Positions 564-14,365 of a DNA stretch of 64,000 nt are shown here, one piece after another (within the stretch, counting starts at the first letter, position 1; the number at the start of each line of letters is the position of its first letter). The position numbers were made by a program, and so were the translations under genes. The notes beneath the pieces are model-generated. The model searched no databases. It saw nothing but the letters and a program-made list of their open reading frames with translations, and was not told the origin of the DNA. Origin of the DNA: a virus; IMG/VR virus record IMGVR_UViG_3300027816_000051, positions 1 to 64,000 of that record; one strand, given 5' to 3'.

Positions 564-573
564 GATAAAAGTG

Positions 574-645: not shown

Positions 646-650
646 GTGGA

Positions 651-705: not shown

Positions 706-714
706 ATGATGATA

Positions 715-1167: not shown

Positions 1168-1179
1168 GATTTTTTTATA

Positions 1180-1187
1180 TATAAATA
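1180..1187 (-). promoter_or_regulatory. Late-type box TATTTATA
   Basis: The minus strand reads TATTTATA 12 nt before the start codon at 1167. It is the same box seen before head and tail genes in this window. Confidence 0.55.
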
Positions 1188-1192
1188 TCTCG

Positions 1193-1266
1193 TGGTCCCT
1201 CACGGGCTTGAACCGTGGACCTACCGATTATGAGTCGGGTGCTCTAACCAACTGAGCTAAGGGACC
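1193..1266 (-). tRNA. tRNA with CAT anticodon (Ile2-like or elongator Met)
   Basis: Acceptor GGTCCCT pairs with AGGGACC, discriminator A, anticodon loop CTCATAA. The body and anticodon stem (CCGA/TCGG) resemble bacterial tRNA-Ile2, whose C34 becomes lysidine to read AUA, more than elongator Met. CCA is not encoded. Confidence 0.9.
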
Positions 1267-1271
1267 AATGG

Positions 1272-1345
1272 TAGTGGTGACGGGATTTGAACCCATAACC
1301 TTGACGGTATAAGCGTCCTGCTCTCACCAATTGAGCTACACCACC
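1272..1345 (-). tRNA. tRNA-Ile(TAT)
   Basis: Anticodon loop CTTATAC in a GACG/CGTC stem gives TAT. Acceptor GGTGGTG pairs with CACCACT (G1-U72), discriminator A. CCA is encoded (1269-1271). UAU anticodons are uncommon in bacteria because AUA is usually read by Ile2. The 5' end overlaps the 3' end of the neighbouring protein gene by 10 nt. Confidence 0.85.
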
Positions 1346-1887
1346 AAATCCAACGAAAACTCTATAATCGTACTCATTAAATGTTCTTCGTCATAGATTT
1401 TTATGTTCTCAAGTTCGATGTTATAAGAACACATATCACAATCCCATAATGCAAATCTTAAACCTTTTTTGAAATCATCCATATCTCGAATGTTCAAAAC
1501 ACCCATGTGACAATAAAGAGGATTGGGTAGGTATTTCCTTTCCAACATTTTATTGTGTTGGTGGTATAAGTCCCATTTTTCTTTATTGCCACTTTCATCC
1601 TTACCATTCCATTCCCCACCATGTTGTGTTGTTACATACCATTCGGTGTCCAATCTTTCATTCTCTAATGAATCTTCTTCAGATACCTCAATGACATTAC
1701 GAGTTTGTAACATATCAGTTGATAGGGTTGGGAGATAATTGTGAACGATTTCCAAACCAACATAATGACCAAGTTGATATTCTGCGGTTAAACTATTTTT
1801 CCACTCGATTCTTTCTTGTTTGAACCTTTCCTCCATTTCAGGAGTGATTGAATCCATCATACTTTTAATAATGTTATTTCTTTCCAT
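1336..1887 (-). CDS. Unknown protein ending inside tRNA-Ile
   Basis: A 183-aa protein starting MERNNIIKSM. A longer frame to 1944 would run through tRNA-Tyr and is rejected. The N-terminus is charged and helical, and the middle is rich in Trp/Tyr/His. I do not recognise a family. Its start (MERN) resembles that of the unknown gene at 4578-5006, which also begins directly after a tRNA, so the two may be distant relatives. The stop codon (1336-1338) and last three sense codons lie inside the 5' acceptor strand of tRNA-Ile(TAT), so RNase P cleavage at 1345/1346 would remove the stop codon. Confidence 0.7.
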   Translation of the reverse strand: MERNNIIKSMMDSITPEMEERFKQERIEWKNSLTAEYQLGHYVGLEIVHNYLPTLSTDMLQTRNVIEVSEEDSLENERLDTEWYVTTQHGGEWNGKDESGNKEKWDLYHQHNKMLERKYLPNPLYCHMGVLNIRDMDDFKKGLRFALWDCDMCSYNIELENIKIYDEEHLMSTIIEFSLDLVV

Positions 1888-1901
1888 ACTATTACTTTTT
1901 G

Positions 1902-1984
1902 TTGAAAGGGAGGGATTCGAACCCCCGTACCCCGAAGAGAGCAAATTTACAGTCTGCCGGTTTTAACCACTCACCCACCTTTCA
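1902..1984 (-). tRNA. tRNA-Tyr(GTA)
   Basis: Class II cloverleaf with a long variable arm. Anticodon loop CTGTAAA in a GCAGA/TTTGC stem, acceptor TGAAAGG pairs with CCTTTCA, T-loop TTCGAAT. Confidence 0.94.
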
Positions 1985-1990
1985 TTGTTG

Positions 1991-2071
1991 TACCGAAGAA
2001 GGGACTCGAACCCCCACGCAATTACGCGCGACATCCTAAGTGTCGTGTGTCTACCATTCCACCACTTCGGC
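1991..2071 (-). tRNA. tRNA-Leu(TAG)
   Basis: Class II cloverleaf. Anticodon loop CTTAGGA in a CGACA/TGTCG stem, acceptor GCCGAAG pairs with CTTCGGT, T-loop TTCGAGT. Confidence 0.95.
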
Positions 2072-2147
2072 AAAGTGTAGGACATCGCTTAACCTACGGT
2101 GTTGCTAGCATTACACACCTTCGATGTTTCCATCAGCGATTTTTTTG

Positions 2148-2220
2148 CTCCCCGACCAAGATTCGAACTTGGGACCCAACGGTTAACAGCCGTTTGCTCT
2201 ACCACTGAGCTATCAAGGAA
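2148..2220 (-). tRNA. tRNA-Asn(GTT)
   Basis: Anticodon loop CTGTTAA in an AACGG/CCGTT stem, T arm CCAAG/CTTGG, discriminator G. The acceptor TTCCTTG/TCGGGGA has one mismatch and several G-U pairs. Confidence 0.93.
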
Positions 2221-2224
2221 TTTG

Positions 2225-2298
2225 TAGGGAAAACAGGACTCGAACCTGCGACCCCCTGGTCCCAAACCAGGTGCGCTAACCAACTGCGCTACTTCCCT
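2225..2298 (-). tRNA. tRNA-Pro(TGG)
   Basis: Anticodon loop TTTGGGA in a CCTGG/CCAGG stem, acceptor AGGGAAG pairs with TTTCCCT, T-loop TTCGAGT. Confidence 0.95.
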
Positions 2299-2305
2299 AT
2301 TAAAA

Positions 2306-2445
2306 AAGATAGTGATGGAGTACCCGTCTCGCTCCAATCTTAACGGCTTCTTCTGAGTTTTATCAGTGCACCGGCCGAGGGTGATGAACACTATGAACCT
2401 TACAACTACTTTGTCGACTTTCATTGTAAGAGTGACCACTATCTT
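2306..2445 (-). ncRNA. Candidate structured RNA: closed multi-hairpin domain between tRNA-Pro and tRNA-Arg
   Basis: A perfect 9-bp stem (AAGATAGTG 2306-2314 with CACTATCTT 2437-2445) closes a domain of 140 nt. Inside are hairpins TGGAG/CTCCA (2316-2320/2332-2336), CTGA/TCAG (2353-2356/2363-2366), CACC/GGTG (2369-2372/2380-2383) and CTTACAA/TTGTAAG (2399-2405/2424-2430). An open frame runs across it and two tRNAs but is judged not coding. The position is comparable to the stable species 1 and 2 RNAs inside the T4 tRNA cluster. The transcribed strand should be minus, like its neighbours. Confidence 0.6.
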
Positions 2446-2447
2446 AG

Positions 2448-2519
2448 TAGGCCCACCAAGACTCGAACTTGGAACATCTCATTAGAAGTGAGAAGTTATA
2501 TCCCTTTAACTATGGGCCC
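2448..2519 (-). tRNA. tRNA-Arg(TCT)
   Basis: Anticodon loop CTTCTAA in a TCTCA/TGAGA stem, acceptor GGGCCCA pairs with TGGGCCT, T arm CCAAG/CTTGG. Confidence 0.94.
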
Positions 2520-2520
2520 A

Positions 2521-2725
2521 TTAAAATGAAAACCTCCTTCTACGCTCACCGTAGTTGTAGATTTGATTGGACATAGTTTACTGTCCACCTGTTGACGTGC
2601 ACATCAGAGCAGGGTCCATCACAGTTCACTTTGGGTCATGTAACTCATTTGGGTAGCTAATCCCAAGAGCCAAAGTTTCTTTCAACGGTGCTAATCCGTC
2701 CTCTGTAAGGAGTTTTTCATTTTTG
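2521..2725 (-). ncRNA. Hairpin-rich non-coding segment between tRNA-Arg and tRNA-Leu
   Basis: No plausible gene. Local inverted repeats: CTACG/CGTAG (2540-2544/2550-2554), TGGACA/TGTCCA (2568-2573/2582-2587), TTGGG/CCCAA (2649-2653/2662-2666) and ACGG/CCGT with a 7-nt loop (2685-2688/2696-2699). This density of short hairpins suggests a structured transcript, though no single closing stem is obvious. Confidence 0.45.
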
Positions 2726-2810
2726 TACCGAGGATGGGAGTCGAACCCACACGAACATTACTGTCCAAGGGATTTTAAGTCCCTCATGTCTACCATTCCA
2801 TCACCTCGGC
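2726..2810 (-). tRNA. tRNA-Leu(TAA)
   Basis: Class II cloverleaf. Anticodon loop CTTAAAA in an AGGGA/TCCCT stem, acceptor GCCGAGG pairs with CCTCGGT, T-loop TTCGACT. Confidence 0.95.
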
Positions 2811-2821
2811 ATTTACCAATT

Positions 2822-2840
2822 CCAATATGTCAAAGAACAA
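2822..2840 (-). promoter_or_regulatory. boxA-like antitermination element (copy 1)
   Basis: The minus strand contains TGTTCTTTGACA, matching 10 of 12 bases of the E. coli rRNA boxA TGCTCTTTAACA. The surrounding 19 bases are identical to 5482-5500. It lies just upstream of tRNA-Leu(TAA) and downstream of a terminator hairpin, where an antitermination site would be useful. Confidence 0.6.
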
Positions 2841-2870
2841 ATCTAATCAAAATATAAACAACAAAATCTT

Positions 2871-2906
2871 AAAAACAAAAAACCCGAACTTTTTTTGAGT
2901 TCGGGT
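2871..2906 (-). terminator. Rho-independent terminator
   Basis: A 9-bp stem (2882-2890 with 2898-2906) is followed on the minus strand by a T-rich run. It ends the small transcription unit that starts near 3050. Confidence 0.8.
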
Positions 2907-2930
2907 CTTCTTATTAGTAGGTTAAGTTCC

Positions 2931-3035
2931 TTACACTTTTAAAAACTCCGAACATGGGTCACATAAATATATACCTCTCCCATTACCACTTAGTGGGTTG
3001 TTCAAGGGTTGTTGTATGTAAACCATTTTCATCAT
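2931..3035 (-). CDS. Small ORF (34 aa) in its own transcription unit
   Basis: The minus strand encodes a 34-residue peptide starting MMKMVYIQQP and ending CDPCSEFLKV, with a CxxC pair. It follows a host-type promoter (-7 box TATCTTTG at 3053-3060) and is followed by a strong terminator, so the region is clearly a separate unit. Whether the peptide or the RNA is the product cannot be told from sequence. A similar promoter/short ORF/terminator unit lies at 5583-5789. Confidence 0.45.
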   Translation of the reverse strand: MMKMVYIQQPLNNPLSGNGRGIYLCDPCSEFLKV

Positions 3036-3052
3036 TTTGTTTATAACTATCA

Positions 3053-3083
3053 CAAAGATACAAAAAGTTTTTTAATTTCCAAG
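3053..3083 (-). promoter_or_regulatory. Bacteroidetes-type promoter
   Basis: The minus strand has TATCTTTG (3053-3060), a perfect match to the -7 consensus TAnnTTTG. TTGG (3079-3082) lies 18 nt upstream as a partial -33 box. It drives the small unit ending at 2871. Confidence 0.6.
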
Positions 3084-3099
3084 TTTTTTTAAAAAAAAA

Positions 3100-3342
3100 T
3101 TAAAATAAATCTTCACACCATATTGGAGTCTTTTCACCAACGTAAGAACCGGAAACATTAAATTCAAAATATTCTACCGCTTCTGTCATATCCATTCCTT
3201 GATTCATAAGTATAGTGATACACTTCTCAACAGAATAGATTAATCTCATTGAAGATGTTTCAATTCCTATTACCGCATCATCAAATCCATCAGCAATTAA
3301 GATTTGTTCATCTTCGTATTGTTCTAAAATTTTTTCTAACAT
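3100..3342 (-). CDS. Small conserved-looking phage protein of unknown function
   Basis: 80 aa, starting MLEKILEQYE. A longer frame to 3402 would enter tRNA-Glu and is rejected. It is an acidic alpha/beta protein ending GEKTPIWCEDLF. The overall look is that of a widespread small phage protein of unknown role. It lies between tRNA-Glu and the small promoter at 3053-3083. Confidence 0.7.
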   Translation of the reverse strand: MLEKILEQYEDEQILIADGFDDAVIGIETSSMRLIYSVEKCITILMNQGMDMTEAVEYFEFNVSGSYVGEKTPIWCEDLF

Positions 3343-3370
3343 ATTGGTTTTTTTTAATTTAATTTCAGTG

Positions 3371-3442
3371 TAGCCCGACGGGGAATCGAACCCCGCTTTC
3401 ATCCGTGAAAGGGACGTGTCCTAACCGATAGACGACCGGGCC
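3371..3442 (-). tRNA. tRNA-Glu(TTC)
   Basis: Anticodon loop CTTTCAC in a CGTCC/GGATG stem, acceptor GGCCCGG pairs with TCGGGCT, T-loop TTCGATT. Confidence 0.95.
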
Positions 3443-3448
3443 AATTTG

Positions 3449-3536
3449 AGGAGAGTGAGGGATTCGAACCCCCGGAACCCTCACGAGTTCTCCTGATTTC
3501 AAGTCAGGTGCAATAAACCAACTCTACCAACTCTCC
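3449..3536 (-). tRNA. tRNA-Ser(TGA)
   Basis: Class II cloverleaf with a long variable arm. Anticodon loop CTTGAAA in a CCTGA/TCAGG stem, acceptor GGAGAGT pairs with ACTCTCC. Confidence 0.95.
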
Positions 3537-3540
3537 AATT

Positions 3541-3748
3541 ACCCCACCTGAGATTACGGTGAGTAGTCATTTCGGTTTATTTTCTTTCAAACAACCTGAA
3601 GGGCGTCCCCGTTAAAAAAAGTCAACACTACTGGGAGGAGGTGTGTCGCTCTCCTTTGTTCCCATGAAGTCCCACTCGCGCCGTAGACTTTCTGCGGAAT
3701 CATTCTTAAAGTCTTGATTCGAAGACTCTGAGTATCTCTTACTCATTG
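3541..3748 (-). ncRNA. Hairpin-rich non-coding segment between tRNA-Ser and tRNA-Asp
   Basis: No gene is seen. Strong hairpins: TGGGA+GGAG (3632-3640) with CTCC (3651-3654) and TCCCA (3660-3664); CCGTAGA (3681-3687) with TCTGCGG (3691-3697); AGTCTT (3710-3715) with AAGACT (3722-3727); TGAGTA (3729-3734) with TACTCA (3740-3745). Three of these lie back to back directly upstream of tRNA-Asp. Confidence 0.5.
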
Positions 3749-3820
3749 CGGTCCCACCGGGAATCGAACCCGGCACTTCGCCGTGACAGGGCGATATTAT
3801 AGCCGATTAACTATGAGACC
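3749..3820 (-). tRNA. tRNA-Asp(GTC)
   Basis: Anticodon loop CTGTCAC in a TCGCC/GGCGA stem, acceptor GGTCTCA pairs with TGGGACC, discriminator G. Confidence 0.95.
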
Positions 3821-3826
3821 AATCGG

Positions 3827-3900
3827 AGCCTCCTGTCGGATTCGAACCAACGACCCGCTGATTACAAATCAGCTGCTCTGGCCAACTGAGCTAAGGAGGC
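3827..3900 (-). tRNA. tRNA-Thr(TGT)
   Basis: Anticodon loop TTTGTAA in a GCTGA/TCAGC stem, acceptor GCCTCCT pairs with AGGAGGC, T-loop TTCGAAT. Confidence 0.95.
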
Positions 3901-3995
3901 AATAGTGGGTCAGAGTAGTCACGGCCACCTCTGTTCCTTCTGACCCTTGTCATAACCGTGGCAAGATGTGGCTCGACCCTAATTATGACCATTTG
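3901..3995 (-). ncRNA. Tandem long-stem hairpins between tRNA-Thr and tRNA-fMet
   Basis: An 8-bp stem GGGTCAGA (3907-3914)/TCTGACCC (3939-3946) is followed by a 7-bp stem GTCATAA (3949-3955)/TTATGAC (3983-3989). GCCAC and GTGGC repeats in the two loops could pair with each other. The whole 95-nt gap is taken up by these two stems. Confidence 0.55.
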
Positions 3996-4067
3996 TTGCG
4001 GGGGTCGGATTCGAACCGACGACCTTTAGGTTATGAGCCTAACGAGCTACCACTGCTCTACCCCACG
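3996..4067 (-). tRNA. Initiator tRNA-fMet(CAT)
   Basis: Anticodon loop CTCATAA. The acceptor 1-72 position is an unpaired C-A, the hallmark of bacterial initiators, with the remaining pairs GTGGGG/CCCCGC. The D arm GAGCAGTGGTAGCTC and T arm GTCGG/CCGAC fit Bacteroidetes initiators. The anticodon stem ends AGG/CCT rather than the canonical GGG/CCC. Confidence 0.9.
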
Positions 4068-4069
4068 AT

Positions 4070-4087
4070 ATATTTCAAAGAACAAAT
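4070..4087 (-). promoter_or_regulatory. boxA-like antitermination element (copy 2)
   Basis: The minus strand reads TTGTTCTTTGAAATAT immediately upstream of initiator tRNA-fMet. It shares TTGTTCTTTGA with the copies at 2822-2840 and 5482-5500. Confidence 0.5.
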
Positions 4088-4126
4088 AAAATATAAGAAG
4101 TAAATTCCATATTTCAAAATGTTTGG

Positions 4127-4201
4127 TTGCGGGACCCGGACTCGAACCGGGAACTTCAGCTTATGAGACTGACGAGATGACCACTTTCTACGCATCCCGC
4201 A
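4127..4201 (-). tRNA. tRNA-Met(CAT), probably elongator
   Basis: Anticodon loop CTCATAA in a TCAGT/GCTGA stem, acceptor TGCGGGA fully pairs with TCCCGCA (so not an initiator), discriminator A. CCA is encoded (4124-4126). Confidence 0.9.
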
Positions 4202-4209
4202 ATGTTTGG

Positions 4210-4283
4210 TTGGAATAATAGGAATCGAACCTATAACCTTTCGCGTATCAGACGAATGCTCTAACCAATTGAGCTATATTCCA
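4210..4283 (-). tRNA. tRNA-Ile(GAT)
   Basis: Anticodon loop CTGATAC in a TTCGT/GCGAA stem, acceptor TGGAATA pairs with TATTCCA. CCA is encoded (4207-4209). Confidence 0.95.
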
Positions 4284-4289
4284 ATTTGG

Positions 4290-4364
4290 GGTAAATAATC
4301 GGATTCGAACCGACGACCTTCTGGACCACAATCAGACGTTCTAACCAACTGAACTATATCTACC
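4290..4364 (-). tRNA. tRNA-His(GTG)
   Basis: Anticodon loop TTGTGGT, acceptor GTAGATA pairs with TATTTAC. An encoded extra G at -1 (position 4364) can pair with discriminator C (4290), the identity mark of tRNA-His. CCA is encoded (4287-4289). Confidence 0.94.
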
Positions 4365-4373
4365 ATTTATAAA

Positions 4374-4395
4374 TTATAAGGTTCAAACCTTATAA
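4374..4395 (-). repeat. Short inverted repeat between tRNA-His and tRNA-Cys
   Basis: TTATAAGG (4374-4381) and CCTTATAA (4388-4395) form an 8-bp stem with a 6-nt loop. It may serve in tRNA precursor processing. No T-run follows. Confidence 0.5.
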
Positions 4396-4426
4396 TGAAC
4401 CATTATAAGTCTCACACCTTATATTG

Positions 4427-4500
4427 AGGTCCCGAGTGGATTCGAACCACCGAATAAGAGTTTTGCAGACTCCCCCCTTAAGCCACTTGGGTACAGGACC
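4427..4500 (-). tRNA. tRNA-Cys(GCA)
   Basis: Anticodon loop CTGCAAA, acceptor GGTCCTG pairs with CGGGACC, discriminator U as expected for Cys. Confidence 0.94.
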
Positions 4501-4504
4501 GTGG

Positions 4505-4576
4505 TGATTCCTAAAGGACTCGAACCCTTACTTCAACGTCCGTAGCGTTGCGTGCTATCCATTACACCAAAGAACC
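4505..4576 (-). tRNA. tRNA-Arg(ACG)
   Basis: Anticodon loop CTACGGA in a CAACG/CGTTG stem, acceptor GGTTCTT pairs with AGGAATC. CCA is encoded (4502-4504). Confidence 0.94.
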
Positions 4577-4577
4577 A

Positions 4578-5006
4578 TTACTTAATTCGTTCATCCCATT
4601 CTTCTTGGGTCCCCAATCTAATTGGAACGAACAATGCAAATCCATCATCATCTTCAAAATGGTTACAATCATCCTCTCTCCAACCAAACTTATATCTCAT
4701 GTGTATAAATTTGTTTGTCTCTTGATTCCATCTTGCGATTGTGGTATTTCTATGTTCACCAATATAAATTTGACCATTTACTAAATCTTTTTTAGGAATC
4801 GCACCTGCGTCAATTAGTTTCGGAACATAGAACTCTCTCCATTCTTTTTCATCCACTCTTGGAAGAGTTGGGACATCTTCGGGATTATTAATCTTTGGTA
4901 AATTCTCCCAATGATTCCTAATCATTCTTTCCCTCTCTTCTTTTAGTTTCATTTTCTCCGCTTCAAATTTCATTTTGACGGCGTTGATGTTATCATTTCT
5001 TTCCAT
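4578..5006 (-). CDS. Unknown charged phage protein in tRNA array
   Basis: 142 aa starting MERNDNINAV. The longer frame to 5165 reads through tRNA-Trp and tRNA-Val and is rejected. The first 45 residues are highly charged and helical. The rest is a compact alpha/beta region with an Asp-rich stretch (HFEDDDGFALF). No family is recognised. It is squeezed between tRNA-Trp and tRNA-Arg(ACG), with its stop codon 2 nt from the latter. Its N-terminus resembles the protein at 1336-1887. Confidence 0.75.
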   Translation of the reverse strand: MERNDNINAVKMKFEAEKMKLKEERERMIRNHWENLPKINNPEDVPTLPRVDEKEWREFYVPKLIDAGAIPKKDLVNGQIYIGEHRNTTIARWNQETNKFIHMRYKFGWREDDCNHFEDDDGFALFVPIRLGTQEEWDERIK

Positions 5007-5028
5007 GTCGTTTATTTTTAAAAGTTTG

Positions 5029-5099
5029 CACAGGTGGAGAGATTCGAACTCCCAACAACGGTTTTGGAGACCGGTATGATACCCTTTCACTACACCTGT
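5029..5099 (-). tRNA. tRNA-Trp(CCA)
   Basis: Anticodon loop CTCCAAA in a CCGGT/ACCGT stem, acceptor ACAGGTG pairs with CACCTGT, discriminator G. Confidence 0.95.
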
Positions 5100-5107
5100 G
5101 TATTGTG

Positions 5108-5180
5108 TAGTCCCTGTCGGATTCGAACCGACGACCCTCTGCATGTAAGGCAGACGCTCTCCCAACTGAGCTAAGGAACT
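5108..5180 (-). tRNA. tRNA-Val(TAC)
   Basis: Anticodon loop CTTACAT in a TCTGC/GCAGA stem, acceptor AGTTCCT pairs with AGGGACT, T arm GTCGG/CCGAC. Confidence 0.95.
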
Positions 5181-5321
5181 ATGAAAGGAAAGAGGAAGAT
5201 GGTTCAGTGGACATCCTCTTTTACGATTGGCGTTACTTCAGGTGAATATCTGCAAACTCCGAATACATCATCCAATATTCACTCTCGAGATATTGATGTA
5301 TCATTCCCCAATCAACCTTTG
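5181..5321 (-). ncRNA. Candidate structured RNA with hairpin and pseudoknot between tRNA-Val and tRNA-Lys
   Basis: AAAGAGGA (5189-5196) pairs with TCCTCTTT (5214-5221). Two further perfect 8-bp helices interleave: GTGAATAT (5242-5249)/ATATTCAC (5275-5282) and ATACATCA (5263-5270)/TGATGTAT (5294-5301). Because one strand of the second lies inside the first and the other outside it, they form an H-type pseudoknot or two alternative folds. There is no coding potential here. Confidence 0.6.
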
Positions 5322-5395
5322 TGTCCCCGATGCGACTCGAACGCATAACCCCCACATTAAAAGTGTGGTGCTCTAACCAATTGAGCTACGAAGAC
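5322..5395 (-). tRNA. tRNA-Lys(TTT)
   Basis: Anticodon loop CTTTTAA in a CCACA/TGTGG stem, acceptor GTCTTCG pairs with CGGGGAC, discriminator A. Confidence 0.95.
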
Positions 5396-5400
5396 AAATG

Positions 5401-5473
5401 TGGTACCGACAGGAATTGAACCTGTGACACCCAGATTTTCAGTCTGGTGCTCTACCAACTGAGCTACGGTACC
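5401..5473 (-). tRNA. tRNA-Phe(GAA)
   Basis: Anticodon loop CTGAAAA in a CCAGA/TCTGG stem, acceptor GGTACCG pairs with CGGTACC, discriminator A. Confidence 0.95.
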
Positions 5474-5843: not shown

Positions 5844-5851
5844 TATTTATA
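5844..5851 (+). promoter_or_regulatory. Late-type box TATTTATA
   Basis: 36 nt before the start codon at 5888. It would drive the 84-aa membrane protein. Confidence 0.6.
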
Positions 5852-5887: not shown

Positions 5888-6142
5888 ATGAACTTCAAAA
5901 AATGGATTATTGACCTTTTCAAAGATGAAAGAGGGTCAACTTCAATCAAACCGGTAATCGCCCTTTTAGGTGCATTATTCCTTTGCGGAACCATGATGGC
6001 AAATTCTTTTACACATGGTGACATTAAACCATCAGAAGAATTGGTAAACGCGGTGATGGTCATTACCGCTATTGGAATGGGTGCAGATACTTTAGATAAG
6101 TTCTCACATAAAAAGAAATCAGACGACGAAGTTTCTGAGTAA
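5888..6142 (+). CDS. Small two-TM membrane protein, possible holin
   Basis: 84 aa. The charged N-terminus KKWIIDLFKDERGS is followed by a hydrophobic segment (residues 23-40), a short polar loop, a second hydrophobic segment (about 52-70), and a charged tail KKKSDDEVSE. Size and layout fit the small class II-type holins that let lysis proteins cross the inner membrane, and similar proteins are common in Bacteroidetes phages. No endolysin is visible next to it, so this is a tentative call. It has its own late box and its own terminator (6148-6180), so it is a single-gene unit. Confidence 0.55.
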   Translation: MNFKKWIIDLFKDERGSTSIKPVIALLGALFLCGTMMANSFTHGDIKPSEELVNAVMVITAIGMGADTLDKFSHKKKSDDEVSE

Positions 6143-6147
6143 AAATT

Positions 6148-6180
6148 ATGGGGTTAGATAACCCCATTTTTTCTTTTTTG
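6148..6180 (+). terminator. Rho-independent terminator
   Basis: 8-bp stem ATGGGGTT/AACCCCAT (6148-6155/6160-6167), then a long T-rich run. Confidence 0.85.
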
Positions 6181-6182
6181 TG

Positions 6183-6677
6183 ATGAAGAGACTGCCCATC
6201 ATATTATTATTATTTCTAATATCATTTGGATTTTCGAATCTGAATGCCCAAACTATTGTTGTTGATACGGTAATCAATAACATTAAAATTGGTCCGTTCA
6301 CCGAAAATAAGAATTTGGCTTTCGGTGTTAAAAATATAATTGAAGAAATCATCAATGAACAGGATAGTTTAATTCTGATTACAGATAAAAATAAAGCAGA
6401 CTACAAAATTAAAGTTGAACTCATATTTTTTGACATTGTAACGACTAACTCGGGGGTTAGTATTTTTCACGAAGACAAAACAACCACCGTCATAAGAATG
6501 AAAGGTGTATTGTACAAAGGTGATAAAAAAATTAAACAGGAATTTTCGGAAGGTAAATCAACCGAAATTTCAACCTCAACCATAATGATTGATGAGGGTG
6601 GTAAATTCAATCAACAATCTGCTAGTTCGGCATTAAAGAAAACAACTCAAAACCTAATAAACAAACTAATACTATGA
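6183..6677 (+). CDS. Exported protein of unknown function, first of surface operon
   Basis: 164 aa from ATG at 6183 (a GTG at 6180 is in frame). The signal peptide ends FSNLNAQ, the usual Bacteroidetes form, giving a periplasmic or outer-membrane protein. The mature part has alternating strands and ends with an amphipathic helix (SSALKKTTQNLINKLIL), a layout faintly like CsgG/LpoB-type periplasmic proteins. This is only a resemblance. It overlaps the next gene by 4 nt (ATGA), so the two are co-translated. Confidence 0.7.
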   Translation: MKRLPIILLLFLISFGFSNLNAQTIVVDTVINNIKIGPFTENKNLAFGVKNIIEEIINEQDSLILITDKNKADYKIKVELIFFDIVTTNSGVSIFHEDKTTTVIRMKGVLYKGDKKIKQEFSEGKSTEISTSTIMIDEGGKFNQQSASSALKKTTQNLINKLIL

Positions 6678-8590
6678 AAAAATTATTATTTATCCTAACC
6701 GCGTTAATTTTTACGACGACCGCGTTTTCTCAAACTACGCCACAGATTGGTAATCCTGTTGCGTATAAAACAATCAAAAGGGGTGACACCCTTGATGTTG
6801 TGTTTAAATACACACCAGCATCTTCTGTTGATGTTAGAACTTTCCAAGTTGATTTTCAATATAGAAAACAACTTTTCACTCACGTATCAACAACTGTCGA
6901 CCCAACTGTGAGTACTATGACACCAGCACTTTCGATTAAGTTCTTTAACAACTACAAATACTCAAGCTACAGTTCGGGAACTGGTTTGTACTCATATTCA
7001 ACGGATACAAATTACACTGTGGCAAGAAACTTTTTGGTTTTGTCAAGTGGTTCTCAAATCACCCAAGACACCTTTTTGATTCACAACAAATTTATCATCA
7101 ACGATGTTGAATCGAACTTCGACGCGGACAGTGTTGAAATAAACTGGGCTCGAATGTTCAAATATGACGGTACTACAATAGGTGATAACATTGCAATCTT
7201 AGATGTTCAAGACATGCATCTTGAACTTTTGGGTAACTTGGTTATCAGTGGTGTTGTTGAATTACCGCCAACAATGAAACTAAATGGTAGAAGACCAACA
7301 GTTATATGTACAAAATACAACACAGGTACATTTGTATCATCAGCACTTTGTGACACTGCGGGTTTCTACTCACTTAACAACGTAGATAAAAATACTAAGT
7401 ATAAATTACTTGTAAGATTCCCCGCGGATAGTATGGAAGTTTTCAGAGATTACGCAGTGACAATATCAGACGCGGTAAAAACATATGATGAATATACAGT
7501 AACTGATGTAAACCAAGGATTTGGTCAACAATATTTGAAAAATGGCTTGGCTTATCTAATAGGTGATATGAACCAAAACGGAAAGTTAGATGGTGGTGAC
7601 CCATACTTGATTTATGCAAACGTTAGTGGTATGAAAAAAATTGACACCACAACCATGATTAGAACATTCCACGCTGATGTTTATGATTCATTAGTGTTAG
7701 GTTCAACACAATGGAATGATTGGCCAAATCATTTAACCGCCACCAATTTTATTACTGATAGTGTTGGATTAACTAATAAGACAGTAAACATTAAGTACTT
7801 TATTCAAGGTGATGTTGACAGAACTTACTCATCGAGAGTATGGAACTCATCAGGTGTATTAGTAGCTAAGGCGGTGTTTAAAGGTAAATTAGATGTTGAG
7901 ATACCTAATACCGCATCATCAGGTAATCAACCAATATACGTACCATTTAATGTAAACACTAATGGTGATAATAATTATGGTCTACAGTTTGAAATGAAAT
8001 ATGATAAAAACAAGGTTAAATTTGAAGAAATCATATCTAATTTTAACGGAGGTCCATGGTTACAGTACGTTACACATGACGCAACTGCTGGTACAATTAG
8101 ATTTGGTGGTATGAATAACCAATTTAAAGATGGTTTAATTGGTCAAGCAACACCATTTAAATTAAAATTTTCACCTATTGGAAATAATGATATTGTGAGT
8201 AATATTTACGTTAGACAATTAATGGACGCATCCGATGAAAGAGGTGACCACTTGAATATTGACTTAGTTAGTAGTGTTGCTGTTATTATGTACAAAATGG
8301 CACCACCTATGAATCAAGACATTGATGAAATTACAGCATCAATTCGTCCAAACCCAACTGGTGGTTGGTTTGAATTAGAAGTAAAATTTCCCAACCCAAA
8401 CATGTCAATGAATGTTTCCATCTATGATAATAGAGGTCAACTAATTAAACAAGTTGGTTCTGTTACCACTAACTATATGGAAACAACTGCCTACAAACAA
8501 ATTGATATGAGTTCTGCATCATCAGGTAATTATTATCTGATTTTGAATAATTATAATAAACAATTAACAAGACAATTTATAAAAGTTTAA
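6674..8590 (+). CDS. T9SS-exported protein with dockerin-like repeat and C-terminal sorting domain
   Basis: 638 aa. Signal peptide (residues 1-19, ending TAFSQ). Beta-rich N-terminal domain. A carboxypeptidase-regulatory-like segment (about 205-285). A dockerin-type Ca loop GDMNQNGKLDGGDPYLIY near residue 295. A cohesin-like beta domain (about 395-545). A final 80 residues beginning IRPNPTGGWFELEV and ending RQFIKV, a type A T9SS sorting domain. T9SS is known only in Bacteroidetes, where this domain directs passage across the outer membrane and surface attachment. The phage therefore relies on host T9SS to display this protein. It sits in an operon with other exported proteins. The C-terminal architecture is shared with, but more complete than, 12080-14365. 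Confidence 0.85.
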   Translation: MKKLLFILTALIFTTTAFSQTTPQIGNPVAYKTIKRGDTLDVVFKYTPASSVDVRTFQVDFQYRKQLFTHVSTTVDPTVSTMTPALSIKFFNNYKYSSYSSGTGLYSYSTDTNYTVARNFLVLSSGSQITQDTFLIHNKFIINDVESNFDADSVEINWARMFKYDGTTIGDNIAILDVQDMHLELLGNLVISGVVELPPTMKLNGRRPTVICTKYNTGTFVSSALCDTAGFYSLNNVDKNTKYKLLVRFPADSMEVFRDYAVTISDAVKTYDEYTVTDVNQGFGQQYLKNGLAYLIGDMNQNGKLDGGDPYLIYANVSGMKKIDTTTMIRTFHADVYDSLVLGSTQWNDWPNHLTATNFITDSVGLTNKTVNIKYFIQGDVDRTYSSRVWNSSGVLVAKAVFKGKLDVEIPNTASSGNQPIYVPFNVNTNGDNNYGLQFEMKYDKNKVKFEEIISNFNGGPWLQYVTHDATAGTIRFGGMNNQFKDGLIGQATPFKLKFSPIGNNDIVSNIYVRQLMDASDERGDHLNIDLVSSVAVIMYKMAPPMNQDIDEITASIRPNPTGGWFELEVKFPNPNMSMNVSIYDNRGQLIKQVGSVTTNYMETTAYKQIDMSSASSGNYYLILNNYNKQLTRQFIKV

Positions 8591-8594
8591 AACT

Positions 8595-8933
8595 ATGAGC
8601 GACGAAACAAACGTACCAGAATCTGACGGAACATGGTCAGGCCTTAAGAAAACATTAATCGGAACTATTTCAACCGCAATTTTAGCTGGTGGTACATGGT
8701 TTACTACTACTCTTATGGGTGGTGGTGAAGAAAAAAATGAACCCACACCAACTCAACAATCGGCACCTGTTATTAATTTAAATGTAGATAATTCTTCTAA
8801 GAACACATCATCAAGTGGTGGGGGAAATACTACAATTATAAAAGAAAGAGTGGTTGAAAAACCATCCAAATCAGAACCTTCTAAACCTAAAAAAGAAGGT
8901 GATGAATTTAAAGAAAAAGAACCACAATGGTAA
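8595..8933 (+). CDS. Small single-TM protein with disordered charged tail
   Basis: 112 aa. No signal peptide. A hydrophobic segment covers about residues 19-42 (LIGTISTAILAGGTWFTTTL). The remainder is low-complexity, rich in Ser/Asn then Lys/Glu/Pro. It probably sits in the inner membrane with the tail on one side. It starts 5 nt after the T9SS protein and overlaps the next gene by 7 nt. A spanin- or holin-like role is possible but not supported by any motif. Confidence 0.65.
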   Translation: MSDETNVPESDGTWSGLKKTLIGTISTAILAGGTWFTTTLMGGGEEKNEPTPTQQSAPVINLNVDNSSKNTSSSGGGNTTIIKERVVEKPSKSEPSKPKKEGDEFKEKEPQW

Positions 8934-9475
8934 ATAATCAACCAACCGGATTTAAAGACCTTCTTAATTCAATGATGAAAAGAAGGTGGTTTATTACCGC
9001 GATTGTTTTAGGTGGATTTATGTTTATTATGGCTGGAATATTTGCCGCCATAATTGGTAAAAATGAAATAGGTGGAGAATGGAAAGAACTTCTTCTTTTA
9101 CTTCTTGGTGCTTTCATTGGTTCTTATGGTAAAATCATTGACTATTGGTTCAGTGATACCGATAAAGATAAAATGTTAGTACAAAAAATGGATGAGGAAG
9201 ATGGTACATCTTTGTCAAACACCGCCGATATGAAAACACCAATCAATCAAAGTTTAGATGAATCTACCCCTCAAGTCACTCCTCAAGTCACCCCCCAAGT
9301 TGGTGTGGAAATAGACGAAGATGGTGATGGTGTAATGGATGGTTTAGATTTTGATAATGATGGTATCATAGATGAATATTTTGAACATCGTCAATGTGAG
9401 CACGTTTGGGGCGACCAAGATAATGACGGTGATTTAGAATGTTTGAAATGTGGTAAGATTAAAGACCCTGAGTAA
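8927..9475 (+). CDS. Two-TM protein with Ca-binding repeats and a Cys/His Zn site
   Basis: 182 aa. TM segments at about 20-44 and 54-75. Then a short tandem repeat (TPQV three times), a calcium-binding DxDxDG series (DEDGDGVMDG, DFDNDGIIDE, DQDNDGDLE), and a Cys/His site (CEHVW then CLKC) that probably binds Zn. The combination of an inner-membrane anchor with thrombospondin type 3-like Ca loops is unusual for a phage. It is translationally coupled to its neighbours in the exported block. The function is unknown. Confidence 0.7.
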   Translation: MVNNQPTGFKDLLNSMMKRRWFITAIVLGGFMFIMAGIFAAIIGKNEIGGEWKELLLLLLGAFIGSYGKIIDYWFSDTDKDKMLVQKMDEEDGTSLSNTADMKTPINQSLDESTPQVTPQVTPQVGVEIDEDGDGVMDGLDFDNDGIIDEYFEHRQCEHVWGDQDNDGDLECLKCGKIKDPE

Positions 9476-9476
9476 T

Positions 9477-10235
9477 ATGAAAAATTTCTTATTTAAGAAA
9501 ATTTTATCTCCAATTGTTTTAGTAATACTATGGTTTTTGGCGATGTTACTATTTGCTAATACGGTAAGTGCTCAAGTTGTGGGTAAGACACAAACAGAAC
9601 AATATAAAGCGTCTTTTGAAACAAATGTGTCTATAGATTCTCTTATGGATTATGATGGCCCTCAAATCCCAATACAAATTTTGAAAATTGGTATTAGTGA
9701 TGAGGTGTATGAACAATATCCCGAACTAAAAGAAAAAAAAGTTGGTTTGGGTGTTGCCAATATTACACTTGAATATTTGGAGAATTTAAATAGATTCACA
9801 TTTACCGAAGACAAAACTGAAATCAAAAATCGTATGGTGAAACAATACCAAGCATCTCAAGCCGGTATTAGTTATGACACATTAAATGGTAGAGGTAAGA
9901 TAAGATTGGCACATTATTTTGTGACAATTGAAGTTTATGAATTTTCAGTGAGTGAGGATGAAACCGTAAATCTTAGTAATGGTGTTAAAAATACCGTTGT
10001 AACTAGATTAGGTTTACAGGTTAGATTTACAGACGCAGAAACCGGTCAAATAATCGCCGCAAGTGGTTTAGGTGAAGCGGTAACAGTAAGAGAACTCAGT
10101 CTTTTGAATGATGATAATTTAAGTGAAGTGAAGTTTAATCAATCAACAATAGGTATTAGTACAAAAAAAGCATTAGATATTGCTTGTTCAAGAATTCTAT
10201 TAAGAATGATAAAAAAGGGTGTATTCCCAAAATAA
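9477..10235 (+). CDS. CsgG-like outer-membrane secretion/assembly protein
   Basis: 252 aa from ATG 9477, 1 nt after the previous stop. A longer frame from 9450 exists but the downstream ATG precedes the signal peptide. Long signal peptide ending NTVSAQ (residues 1-33). The mature part follows the CsgG pattern: GVANITLEYLENLNRFTF, then KIRLAHYFVTIEVYEF, then RLGLQVRFTDAETGQIIAAS, then a helix STKKALDIACSRILLRMI. CsgG forms the outer-membrane channel for curli subunits. Here there is no Cys after the signal peptide, so the usual lipid anchor is missing. No clear CsgA/B/E/F genes are adjacent, so the substrate is unknown. It ends the operon (terminator at 10259). Confidence 0.75.
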   Translation: MKNFLFKKILSPIVLVILWFLAMLLFANTVSAQVVGKTQTEQYKASFETNVSIDSLMDYDGPQIPIQILKIGISDEVYEQYPELKEKKVGLGVANITLEYLENLNRFTFTEDKTEIKNRMVKQYQASQAGISYDTLNGRGKIRLAHYFVTIEVYEFSVSEDETVNLSNGVKNTVVTRLGLQVRFTDAETGQIIAASGLGEAVTVRELSLLNDDNLSEVKFNQSTIGISTKKALDIACSRILLRMIKKGVFPK

Positions 10236-10258
10236 CTTCATAATGTTTAAAAGTTAAT

Positions 10259-10283
10259 AAAAGGGGGGTTAAACCCCCTTTTT
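10259..10283 (+). terminator. Rho-independent terminator
   Basis: G-run/C-run stem (10264-10268 with 10274-10278, extended by A-T pairs) followed by T-run. It ends just before the start codon of the next gene. Confidence 0.85.
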
Positions 10284-10292
10284 AATATGGTT

Positions 10293-12083
10293 ATGAATTT
10301 TAAAACGTTAATATTAAGTTTTTTTCTTATTTTCGTATGTAACATATCGAAAGCACAGGTATCAACATATACCTTTATCGACCCTTGTACAAAAGAGGTA
10401 ACTATGTTTAGTGTACCAATACAGGGTGGTAAAACAATGATTATTTTTTTAGATAATGTTGGTTACTTTGATGCTAATGATTTGTCAAATGGTAATTTTT
10501 CAAATTGGGTAAATCAGGTTTACACAAAATACAGACAGACCAATCCCTGTTCACAACAACAAGGTCAGGTAATTCAAAATCAGATAACCGCACAAATAAT
10601 TGGAGGTACGATTCAGTCAGTTGTTAGTTCTATTTTGTCAAGCAGTCAATCACAATCAACAAGTTTAGAAAGTGGTTCGTCAAGTAGTGATGCTGGTGGA
10701 AAAGACAATAAAAATTCTGAAAAAAAGAAAAATAATAATTCATCCCAAACAAATGGAAATAATTCATCTCAATCAAATACAACGAGTACTACTTCAACTC
10801 AAACTGGAGGACAATCCCAAACGAATTCAGGAACTAATAACTCAAATGGAGGAAGTGGTTCAACATCAGGAAATGGGAATACAACGAATGGTGGAGGGAC
10901 ATCAGGTTCAGGTAACACAACTCAAGGTGGAAATTCAACGACTCAACCGTCTGTAGGAACAAACACGTCTACTAACAACAATTCAGGTTCAACCAATAGT
11001 GGTGGTTCTGGTGGTACTAACAATAGTTCGTCTAATAATACGAACACAACAACCGGTAACAATGGAACATCTACAAATACTTCGGGTGGTTCAACAACTA
11101 ATACAAACGGTTCGGCAACCACAAGTGGTAGTGGTGGTAGTAATACCAACAATTCAAATAGTGGAGGTTCTAATACAAACGGTTCTAATGGTAATACCAC
11201 AGGTGGTTCTACAAATGGTAATAGTGGGGGTTCTAATGGTGGTACCACTAGTGGTACAAATACAACAGGTGGAAGCGGTTCAAGTAATACTAATAACACC
11301 AACACAAATAATCAAAAGGGTGAGGAAGTTGGTGCCACAACACAAATGAATAATGATGCACACAATGATAATAATGCGGGTGGAGGTTCTAATAGTGGTG
11401 GTAAAGGTAAATCAGGGGGTAGTGGTAGTGCGAGGTCAAACCCTATAATAGTTTCTTCTGATATTACCTCAGCACAAAACTTGAATAGAACATTTACACC
11501 TATTGTTAATATAGGTACAAGTAAATCGTCAATGACGGGTTTATCAAGTTATGGTGTTACTGGTATGGTATGGTTAAACTTTAAACAGTTTGCTGTTTCG
11601 GCTAAATACACTAAAATACATTACAGTAAATCAAAAAAATTAAAATTCATACATAATTTAAATTTAACGGGTGTATATACTTACGGAAACTACTTGGGTT
11701 TTGTTGGTTATAGTGGGATTTTAAATGGTGGAAAATACGGTGTAACAGGTTTTAATATAAGTGGTGCAGCCACGATAATATCAGAAGAAAAAAGTGGTTA
11801 TTATTCACCATCAATTACCGCTTTTTATACAAGACCAATTAAGGTTAGTAAAAAAATGATAGTTAGTCCTGAATTATATGTTATTTCTACACCATTGGTT
11901 TATTCAACCAAAGACAAAGTATCAATAAGTGATAGATACGTGAGTGGGTTTATTGGGACGGGTATTGATTATCAAATATCAAAAAGATTTAAGTTAAATG
12001 TCAACTATAAAGCAAATATGAGTACAAATCCGGAATTTCCGATTTTGTCATTCTTTTTAATTGGTAGTAAGATAAATTTATGA
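10293..12083 (+). CDS. Outer-membrane beta-barrel protein with giant Ser/Gly/Asn/Thr linker
   Basis: 596 aa from ATG 10293 (ATG 10287 is also possible). Signal peptide ending ISKAQ. A small N-terminal domain with two Cys (residues 22-90). Then about 260 residues of low-complexity S/G/N/T/Q. Then a C-terminal domain of about 215 residues made of alternating amphipathic strands and ending IGSKINL, typical of an outer-membrane barrel. The order is unusual: a soluble head joined by a very long flexible tether to a membrane barrel. It may hold a receptor- or matrix-binding head off the cell surface. Its last 4 nt overlap the lectin gene (ATGA). Confidence 0.75.
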   Translation: MNFKTLILSFFLIFVCNISKAQVSTYTFIDPCTKEVTMFSVPIQGGKTMIIFLDNVGYFDANDLSNGNFSNWVNQVYTKYRQTNPCSQQQGQVIQNQITAQIIGGTIQSVVSSILSSSQSQSTSLESGSSSSDAGGKDNKNSEKKKNNNSSQTNGNNSSQSNTTSTTSTQTGGQSQTNSGTNNSNGGSGSTSGNGNTTNGGGTSGSGNTTQGGNSTTQPSVGTNTSTNNNSGSTNSGGSGGTNNSSSNNTNTTTGNNGTSTNTSGGSTTNTNGSATTSGSGGSNTNNSNSGGSNTNGSNGNTTGGSTNGNSGGSNGGTTSGTNTTGGSGSSNTNNTNTNNQKGEEVGATTQMNNDAHNDNNAGGGSNSGGKGKSGGSGSARSNPIIVSSDITSAQNLNRTFTPIVNIGTSKSSMTGLSSYGVTGMVWLNFKQFAVSAKYTKIHYSKSKKLKFIHNLNLTGVYTYGNYLGFVGYSGILNGGKYGVTGFNISGAATIISEEKSGYYSPSITAFYTRPIKVSKKMIVSPELYVISTPLVYSTKDKVSISDRYVSGFIGTGIDYQISKRFKLNVNYKANMSTNPEFPILSFFLIGSKINL

Positions 12084-14365
12084 GAAATGTACTATTTTTT
12101 ATATTGTTTTTGTTGTTACCTGTCTTAGCTTTTTCACAAGCAACAACAATGTCATTGGGTACAAGTAGTACGGGTGTGGTATCATCTACTTACAATACAT
12201 GGACCAAGGTTGACCCTAATTTAACAATTACAGCAAATGGGACAATAAATGGATTTAGAGTTCAAATATCTCAAACGTACACAAGTGGCGACCAATTGAG
12301 GTCAACATCAACTTTACCAACAGGTGTGAGTGCTTCTTTTAATACTACCACAGGTATATTAGTATTTTCGGGCACAGCAAGTGCAAGTGATTGGCAAACA
12401 GTATTGAGAGGTGTTGAATTTAAATCAACAACATCAACTTGTTACCCACTACAAAGGAGAGTCACATTTGTTGCTGGTTTAGTTTTTTACAACCCATTAA
12501 CTGAACATTTTTATGAATATGTTTCATCATCAGGTTCATGGACAACCGCAAAAACTAATTCTGAGTTAAGGTCTTATTTTGGTAGAGCCGGTTATTTAGC
12601 GACCATGTCTTCTGAAGCTGAAAATAATTTTATTTGGAAATTAATGTCATCAGATGGTTGGTTTGGGGCGTCGGATGAGATGAGTCAGGTTAATACCGCT
12701 AAGGGTTCTACCGTTTATACTTCACAAGCGGCGGTAGAACAAAAATGGCATTGGGTGTCAGGTCCTGAGAAGGGGACACAGTTTTCTAACGGTAGTACCG
12801 CGGTAACGGGTCAATACTCAAAATGGGCTGGTGGTGAACCAAATAATGCGGGTGGTGAACATTATGCACAATTTTATTCCGCGAACAGTGGACAATGGAA
12901 TGATTTACCTAACACTAACTTACCCGGTTATATTTGTGAATATGGAGACATGCCAAACGACCAAACATCAAGTATCACAATATTAACAAGGAATGTTGAA
13001 ATCAGTAACGCTTCAAGTGGTTACATAAGTGGTGGTAACATAAATGTTTGTTCGGGTAGTAACAGCACAACTTTAACGTTAAATGGGTATACAGGTAGTA
13101 TTGTTAGATGGGAATCTTCTTTTGATAACTTTTTTACCGCAGCAACCACAATATCGAGTACATCTTCAAGTATAACAGTAACCAACTTAACTAAAACCAC
13201 ATACTACAGAGCGGTAATAAATTCAACAAGTCCTGTGAGTTGTACAGGTTTAGTAACATCAAGTGTTTATCTGTCTGTAAAACCAACAAAATCAGGTTCA
13301 GTATTTGCGGTAAATAATAGTATATGTGCGGGAGGGCAATCCGAATTAACATTATCTGGTCAACAAGGTAATGTAAATAAATGGCAACGCTCAACTAATG
13401 GAACAACATGGACCGATATATCAAATACAACCACAAGTCTTACCGAAACAATTAGTAGCGCCGGAACTTATTATTATAGGGTAGAAGTTCAAACTCCAAA
13501 TTGTGGTAGTGCGGTCTTTTCTGATTCTAAAATAATCACAGTTACATCGGGAACACCTCCTGTTGGTGGTTCTATATCTTCATCAACACATACTTCTACA
13601 ACAAACTCAGGAACACTTACACTAAGTAGTTACACGGGTACAATTGTTAAATGGCAACGTTCAACAAATGATGGTGTAACATGGACTGACATTGTAAACA
13701 CATCGACAACTTATTCATACACAAATATAACCGTCAAAACATTGTTCAGAGCTCAATTACAAAGTGGTACTTGTGGTTTCGCTTATAGTTCATCAGGTTC
13801 TGTAACGATTATAACTGAAACAATAATCGGTACAATTACGATACCTACAGGTTTATCGGTAAGACCACAAGTAAAATTATATTTGGTTGAAAATGGTGTT
13901 GAGACACTGTTACAAACTGTCACGGTTGGTACAACAGGTACTTACACTTTAAACCCAACAAAATATAACTCAACTTATAAAATAGTTCCTTCGTTTTCAT
14001 CATCATTAACGTCCGCAGATTTTGATAATGTTTTTAATGAGTCACAAAACGAAAATACACCGAGTTTATTACAACCCGGTGTAGTATTGAATAATGGCCC
14101 GAAAATGAAAGCTGGCGATATTAATAAAGATGGTAAGGTAACAATATCGGATGCGTACTTATTAGGTGCTAATTTAACAAGTATGATAACATTTGATGAG
14201 GTTTATTGGTACACCGCGAATGATTTTAATTCGTTAACAATATCAAACTTCAATACAGTCACTCCATCAAATAATTTCTCAATAAATTTTACAAATACAT
14301 CAGTTACTTTTAACATCAAGTATATTGTAAAAGGAGATGCTAACTTATCTTCTTCGTCTTATTGA
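12080..14365 (+). CDS. Exported C-type lectin/Ig-like adhesin, C-terminally truncated
   Basis: 761 aa. Signal peptide ending AFSQ. A beta domain (20-135). A C-type lectin domain (about 140-290) with GYLATMSSEAENN, WHWVSG, WAGGEPNN, WNDLP and GYICEYG. Three Ig-like modules (about 310-580), two containing KWQRSTN. A carboxypeptidase-regulatory-like module (585-650). A dockerin-type loop GDINKDGKVTISDAY near 676. The protein stops after YIVKGDAN, exactly where the related protein 6674-8590 (YFIQGDVD) continues into its cohesin-like and T9SS domains. So the sorting domain is absent, by truncation or by design. EPN in the lectin suggests mannose-type Ca-dependent binding. Confidence 0.85.
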   Translation: MRNVLFFILFLLLPVLAFSQATTMSLGTSSTGVVSSTYNTWTKVDPNLTITANGTINGFRVQISQTYTSGDQLRSTSTLPTGVSASFNTTTGILVFSGTASASDWQTVLRGVEFKSTTSTCYPLQRRVTFVAGLVFYNPLTEHFYEYVSSSGSWTTAKTNSELRSYFGRAGYLATMSSEAENNFIWKLMSSDGWFGASDEMSQVNTAKGSTVYTSQAAVEQKWHWVSGPEKGTQFSNGSTAVTGQYSKWAGGEPNNAGGEHYAQFYSANSGQWNDLPNTNLPGYICEYGDMPNDQTSSITILTRNVEISNASSGYISGGNINVCSGSNSTTLTLNGYTGSIVRWESSFDNFFTAATTISSTSSSITVTNLTKTTYYRAVINSTSPVSCTGLVTSSVYLSVKPTKSGSVFAVNNSICAGGQSELTLSGQQGNVNKWQRSTNGTTWTDISNTTTSLTETISSAGTYYYRVEVQTPNCGSAVFSDSKIITVTSGTPPVGGSISSSTHTSTTNSGTLTLSSYTGTIVKWQRSTNDGVTWTDIVNTSTTYSYTNITVKTLFRAQLQSGTCGFAYSSSGSVTIITETIIGTITIPTGLSVRPQVKLYLVENGVETLLQTVTVGTTGTYTLNPTKYNSTYKIVPSFSSSLTSADFDNVFNESQNENTPSLLQPGVVLNNGPKMKAGDINKDGKVTISDAYLLGANLTSMITFDEVYWYTANDFNSLTISNFNTVTPSNNFSINFTNTSVTFNIKYIVKGDANLSSSSY

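Follow-up and report, generated by a model that had tools for sequence, protein, structure and literature searches.

A conserved, probable surface-export operon in a T4-like phage of Bacteroidota, with a possible cohesin scaffold for dockerin-bearing lectins

A 288-kb T4-like large phage of Bacteroidota carries a run of eight genes whose products include five predicted exported proteins, among them a client of the host type IX secretion system (T9SS) with cohesin domains, a lectin with a dockerin-like domain, and a protein of CsgG/PelC fold. The reading that we favor, tentatively and short of calling it probable, is that the run is a late operon that displays lectins with dockerin-like domains on a cohesin scaffold anchored by the T9SS, rebuilding the surface of the infected cell and gluing the host in place. 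A more elaborate version, to which we give less credence, is a phage cellulosome-like assembly in which a g018/g014 ring and a g019 barrel serve swappable dockerin-tagged adhesin heads, late in infection, as a core function of the lineage. An earlier note on this DNA had proposed a multi-gene exported program working through host export systems, and the predictions described below support such a program, whose members include a T9SS client as well as a protein of CsgG fold. The note had missed the cohesin and dockerin-like domains, the motif that precedes the block, and how widely the block is conserved.

Results

The window, that is, the whole stretch of DNA analyzed, is the first 64 kb of virus record IMGVR_UViG_3300027816_000051 (288,260 bases). 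Positions 5888-14365 are filled by eight tightly spaced, co-directional open reading frames, g013 to g020, all on the + strand, as are the domains described below. The block is flanked on one side by a cluster of 23 tRNA genes (573-5473, directly upstream) and on the other by minus-strand genes. Heuristics underlie both the gene calls and the signal peptides throughout. A simple one for signal peptides assigns cleavable Sec peptides to g014, g015, g018, g019 and g020, with cleavage between A or S and Q or between S and AQ, so that the earlier note's list of five exported genes with peptides ending in AQ or SQ was right. Small membrane proteins in the same run are likewise confirmed, though we count three (g013, g016 and g017) where the note had two. 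Signal peptides are found in five of the eight block genes versus about 14 of 363 elsewhere (Fisher p ~1e-5), a value that is approximate because the heuristic was combined with a hand-picked background.

The third gene of the block, g015 (6674-8590, 638 aa), encodes a predicted T9SS-anchored scaffold in which the signal peptide is followed by a cohesin-like domain, an X-dockerin-like domain, a cohesin domain and a T9SS C-terminal sorting domain (CTD). The N-terminal cohesin-like domain (6767-7222) was recognized with an HMM built here (COHN); elsewhere, in other lineages, the domain at this end is matched directly by the cohesin HMM. The X-dockerin-like domain (7322-7825) is common to g015 and g020 (BLASTP E 1e-7). 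The cohesin domain proper (7895-8260) matches PF00963 at E 0.0015 in the genome search, which is below cut-off, and at 1.4e-12 in homologues; g015's own cohesin matches range from E 0.0015 to 0.02, all under the Pfam cut-off. The type-A CTD (8342-8584) is firmer. The genome search matched it to PF18962 at 2.6e-10, which exceeds the cut-off; in the protein search PF18962 (3e-8) and TIGR04183 (2e-6) both exceed their curated cut-offs; and the match to the solved CTD 8glk is at 4e-7. It is the sole such match in the 288-kb record. Having both marks of a type-A cargo, a CTD above curated cut-off and a Sec signal peptide, g015 is the T9SS-sorted protein that the note had proposed, and is predicted to be a client of the host T9SS.

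The last gene of the block, g020 (12080-14365, 761 aa), encodes a signal peptide, a C-type lectin domain, an Ig-like region and an X-dockerin-like domain, and has no T9SS CTD. The lectin domain (12488-12949; PF00059, own HMM) is weak in g020 itself, at E 0.003 and below cut-off, and reaches 1.1e-17 in homologues, which bears out the C-type lectin adhesin of the earlier note. The X-dockerin-like domain (13892-14350) matches PF00404 at E 0.016, and the profile of its family matches solved dockerins (8ajy at 2.7e-6, also ScaB and CelL). Pfam Dockerin_1 is found in 14 of 28 family members. One full Ca-binding loop is clear, and the other repeat is degenerate. A Pfam scan of 42 representative homologues returned Cohesin in 16 (best 1.4e-12), Lectin_C in 12 (1.1e-17), the T9SS tail in 13 (best 1.6e-11) and Dockerin_1 in 12, with PA14, GEVED and LamG as alternative adhesin heads. 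The cohesin/dockerin case thus rests on homologues, because the window's own matches fall below Pfam cut-offs. Cohesin or dockerin domains also occur in many non-cellulosomal bacterial proteins without demonstrated pairing.

What would hold an unanchored lectin at the cell surface? Domain architecture was read across 164 loci with HMMs built here. A T9SS CTD was recognized on 129 proteins, every one of which also has a cohesin; no CTD was recognized on any of the 121 lectin proteins. Cohesin, CTD and lectin-dockerin occur together in 104 of the 164 loci. This confinement of the CTD to cohesin proteins, never to lectin proteins, is scaffoldin logic at the level of predicted domains. With a cohesin scaffold encoded in the same operon, the unanchored lectin g020 has a plausible docking partner, and we infer that its dockerin-like domain would dock to the g015 cohesin. 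In about a fifth of the loci the T9SS domain is not recognizable, so either another anchor exists or the T9SS step is not universal. Ten of the 164 lack recognized cohesin/lectin domains, some of them owing to contig ends. Separately, some g015 homologues without a T9SS domain (L096, L092, L079 and L076) share an IKLTGYNNF-like tail, possibly another sorting signal. A diversity-generating retroelement acting on the lectin was considered and rejected: the genome has no reverse transcriptase, and module DNA is not duplicated anywhere in it.

The protein encoded by g018 (9477-10235, 252 aa) is also predicted to be exported. Its AlphaFold2 model is of moderate quality (pLDDT 76, pTM 0.65). The top Foldseek match is CsgG (4uv2; E 1e-6, probability 1.0, TM 0.40-0.46), followed by PelC (4e-6) and then HP0492, FlgT and LptE; against viral models the best match is a phage CsgG. 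The sequence gives a different answer, as PF03783 (CsgG) has no match in the genome, the g018 protein or 17 homologues, and a PDB profile search with g018 gave no match; membership of the CsgG family by sequence was therefore dropped. No lipobox cysteine follows the signal peptide, which is cleaved between S and AQ and is of the AQ/SQ type throughout the alignment (A1). The tip of the long modeled hairpin is 32% charged and 30% hydrophobic, and no clear transmembrane hairpins are seen. Because g018 lacks the lipobox cysteine and its hairpin tip is so highly charged, there is no indication of a transmembrane pore like that of CsgG. Of the CsgG-like channel in the earlier note, then, the CsgG/PelC-type fold stands and the channel lacks support; among its anticipated profile matches, those to the T9SS CTD and the lectin were found, and that to CsgG was not. 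Our guess is that g018 is a periplasmic ring of PelC type. The small exported protein of the note, g014 (6183-6677, 164 aa, with a signal peptide), proves to be a g018 paralogue (hhalign 95%, E 2.5e-8 to the g018 family).

The structure of g019 (10287-12083, 598 aa) was deduced from an AlphaFold2 model of a short homologue, L090, and an alignment to it. In the model a disordered linker joins an N-terminal domain to a 12-strand barrel. By alignment, g019 has a signal peptide, an N-terminal domain with a conserved Asp-Pro-Cys, a long low-complexity tether and a C-terminal 12-strand barrel at approximately 11445-12080, in keeping with the outer-membrane barrel on a long tether described in the note. 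The best Foldseek match of the barrel is FapF (7.6e-5), with NanC and several other 12-strand barrels scoring nearly as well. The g019 profile does not match FapF. PDB matches of the full-length g019 profile were set aside as low-complexity noise.

The remaining three genes encode small membrane proteins. The product of g013 (5888-6142, 84 aa, family F6) is holin-like at most, with marginal matches to the phiLC3 holin (E 0.06) and a PHROG holin (E 0.3). That of g016 (8595-8933, 112 aa, family F2) has one hydrophobic stretch predicted to span the membrane and a Pro/Asn-rich tail ending in Trp. From its sequence, g017 (8927-9475, 182 aa, family F4) encodes about two transmembrane segments and C-terminal Ca/Zn-type motifs, and matches no known family. 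Its C-terminus, that of a predicted inner-membrane protein, has DxDxDG repeats followed by CxHxW...CxxCG, conserved in many homologues. A holin identity for these three proteins was rejected, as Pfam and PHROGs gave nothing solid.

The block is widely conserved. Relatives of g018, confirmed by tblastn, are coded in 523 viral stretches. The module was analyzed in 164 loci, all anchored on g018; as these loci are related, counts of them overstate independent events. Within them, cohesin/lectin proteins occur in 156, g019 in about 156 (two clusters summed), g016 in 148, g014 in 147, g017 in 113, an endolysin in 85 and g013 in 82, and the next commonest family in 44. Gene order is rearranged among loci while the gene set is kept. 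Seen from g019, g018 is adjacent in the best 80 loci except 10, nearly all of which lie at a contig edge; in one g019 locus without a nearby g018, insertions have probably pushed g018 beyond the flank. The earlier note had set the block apart from lone surface morons, and synteny in other phages agrees, the block being a conserved module and not scattered morons.

Among relatives by major capsid protein (MCP) longer than 100 kb, six of seven have g018; the seventh (287 kb), whose record may be incomplete, lacks g018, g019 and the dockerin-like domain. In these relatives the module thus appears, from the sequences, to be present all or none. The hundreds of copies are in uncultured viral contigs, and among 50,697 phage records only the Immutovirus isolates carry the module, its genes mostly annotated as hypothetical; tblastn of g014 and g017 against isolated phages gave no match. 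Of the 35 proteins matched to Flavobacterium phage immuto, in a comparison that covered its genome except the 28-78 kb part, g018 is the most conserved at 57%, as compared with 43% for the MCP, 36% for RecA and 29% for the terminase. Conservation of this kind makes the module look like a core function of the phage lineage. A bacterial origin was rejected: in 301 Flavobacteriaceae genomes, the family of a Flavobacterium MAG with a match, the one match is the MAG's own phage-like contig, and the other match in the genome collection is likewise to a contig with phage genes.

When would the block be expressed? The motif TATTTATA (5844-5851, + strand) lies 44 nt upstream of g013. It has 60 copies in the genome, on both strands, 43 of them in the sense orientation and ahead of a gene by no more than 100 nt, where 6.4% would be expected. 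It is common to the terminase, portal, scaffold, tail tube and GH19-type endolysin (g331) genes and g013, and is absent upstream of the recognized replication genes of this genome. Among 155 other loci, 63 have the motif upstream of their first module gene, versus 9.2% of other genes; counting distinct upstream regions, the figure is 22 of 80 (p 2e-6). There it also lies upstream of 38% of endolysin genes and of 0-2% of the internal genes g016, g017 and g018. We read the motif as a probable late promoter serving one operon. Late expression is probable because g013 has this motif in common with the terminase, portal and endolysin genes, and because an endolysin is often nearby; late transcription itself is inferred from the motif.

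Discussion

The favored reading is built from sequence and prediction: signal peptides, four kinds of domain (T9SS, cohesin, dockerin-like and lectin), the folds, and the way the genes are conserved and occur together. The secreted products would pass the inner membrane through host Sec. The host T9SS would then move g015, the scaffoldin-like, cohesin-bearing protein, over the outer membrane and anchor it. The g020 lectin, with no anchor of its own, would be kept at the surface by docking of its dockerin-like domain into a g015 cohesin. The CsgG/PelC-fold proteins g018 and g014 might form a periplasmic ring or cap which, with the FapF-like tethered barrel of g019, would export or seat the unanchored adhesin. 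The products of g013, g016 and g017 would sit in the inner membrane. At the surface, the lectins could bind glycans of neighboring cells or particles, so that the host is glued in place near lysis. Adhesion or aggregation as the purpose is the least certain step of this explanation.

Might the module instead serve lysis and release? Here g013, g016 and g017 would act with a holin and endolysin, and g018, g014 and g019 would stand in for spanins by opening or destabilizing the outer membrane, with only an accessory part for the surface proteins. This rival is a real one because of the endolysin neighborhood and because a lysis role has been proposed for the CsgG pore of the methylophage Melnitz (PMC9004378). 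Of the 164 loci, 85 have an endolysin, in these loci a peptidoglycan-binding plus GH19 protein, within 14 genes of the module, and in 65 it belongs to one contiguous co-directional run with the module; the endolysin too has the upstream motif, and the holin-like g013 is present in 82 loci. In the phage analyzed here, however, endolysin g331 is far from the module and outside the operon, and in immuto the holin and endolysin genes are annotated separately. No recognized holin or spanin was convincing in the block, where only marginal holin scores were obtained, and a lysis role leaves the cohesin, dockerin, lectin and T9SS domains unexplained. We consider lysis as the main function unlikely.

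The three other explanations have less support than lysis. One is superinfection exclusion or receptor masking, in which the coat would keep competitors from adsorbing, or progeny from adsorbing again to the cell and its debris. Exclusion has been suggested for the T9SS cargo of Cryophage (PMC7468147). It draws on the same surface evidence as the lectin-display reading, and the variety of heads among loci (lectin, PA14, GEVED, LamG) is what surface competition predicts. Exclusion genes generally act early, however, so the probable late promoter fits poorly and speaks mildly against a module made chiefly for exclusion. We hold it to be more doubtful than lysis.

One might also think of a secreted amyloid or fiber of curli or Fap type, with g018 and g019 as its export pore, since the leading fold matches, CsgG and FapF, are both amyloid exporters, and complete curli modules are known in pelagiphages (PMC9599517). 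Searches with Pfam and NCBIfam found no CsgA/CsgB-like repeat protein, CsgE or CsgF in any module protein, and identified no FapB or FapC. The missing CsgG profile match, lipobox and clear transmembrane hairpins of g018, and the other barrels that score near FapF, also weigh against this explanation, which we regard as improbable. Least probable of all is decoration of virions with glycan-attaching proteins: lectin and Ig-like domains are found on some phage particles and late expression would coincide with that of the structural genes, but Sec peptides and a T9SS domain would take the proteins away from the cytoplasm, the site of T4-like virion assembly, and the module stands apart from the structural genes both here and in immuto. 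We saw no evidence that places these proteins in the virion.

We know of no described phage system that works as a T9SS-anchored cohesin scaffold with dockerin-tagged adhesins. A literature search that left out most subscription journals found no report of phage cohesin or dockerin. The parts have precedents. Phage curli modules (CsgG/CsgF, type VIII secretion) have been published for pelagiphages and Melnitz (PMC7029224, PMC9599517, PMC9004378), csgG is abundant among marine phage genes (PMC7003362), and T9SS cargo proteins have been published for Cryophage (PMC7468147). The earlier note's claim of novelty therefore needs narrowing: what looks new, and is undescribed in the literature searched, is the union of a CsgG-fold protein and T9SS client with a cohesin/dockerin scaffold.

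Like the present module, the phage curli modules are multi-gene surface-export operons with a CsgG-fold protein; they occur in marine phages, some of them myophages, and aggregation ('sibling capture') or lysis has been proposed as their role. They differ in that their CsgG and CsgF are recognizable as such from sequence, and those of pelagiphages include curli repeats. The present module has neither a CsgG profile match nor CsgF or CsgA, and instead combines a cohesin, a dockerin, a lectin, T9SS sorting and a separate barrel. The Cryophage cargo (PMC7468147) is similar in being a T9SS type-A client of a Bacteroidota phage with variable adhesin-like domains such as PA14, but consists of variable single genes, whereas here one client lies in a conserved operon with envelope proteins of its own and a cohesin. 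The pairing of an anchored cohesin protein with unanchored dockerin-like proteins recalls the scaffoldin and dockerins of the cellulosome; unlike the cellulosome, the module is phage-encoded, has no cellulases and would use T9SS rather than S-layer or sortase anchoring, and its pairing is putative. The layout of g019, with signal peptide, N-terminal domain, disordered linker and C-terminal 12-strand barrel, is that of Pseudomonas FapF, without detectable sequence similarity and with Asp-Pro-Cys conserved in the N-terminal domain. Finally, g018 has an alpha/beta fold similar to that of PelC, of the Pel polysaccharide export ring, and of the FlgT and LptE types of CsgG-like fold, but lacks a lipobox and has a longer, charged hairpin.

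If the lectin-display reading is correct, infected cells of a major aquatic bacterial group turn sticky before bursting, which would alter aggregation, phage spread and carbon export. The role of the pelagiphage curli poses the same question as the present module, and a defined operon with a cultured isolate offers a test of what surface-export modules do for phages. A phage cohesin-dockerin pair, if real, would offer orthogonal docking parts from a new natural source.

Some features elsewhere in the 288-kb record, given in its coordinates, deserve mention. In immuto the module adjoins an endonuclease gene (immuto 9935-10513; PF01223 1e-25), and g337 of the present phage (261056-261658) encodes an exported member of the DNA/RNA non-specific endonuclease family that is 48% identical to it. 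Two large blocks of glycosyltransferase-like genes (153713-161061 and 265375-279367) are perhaps concerned with surface or DNA glycosylation. In the structural region g105 (107949-124367) is a single 5472-aa open reading frame, probably a giant fiber or tail protein. Beyond the window, at about 236600-257000 and at 283480-285100 (g304-g330, g367 and g368), many otherwise unlike genes encode a similar short N-terminus, for example xIIVTESQLKxLIxxxxNE, in seven genes by a strict pattern and in more by eye. It resembles the capsid-targeting leader of internal head proteins, and several of these genes also bear TATTTATA upstream.
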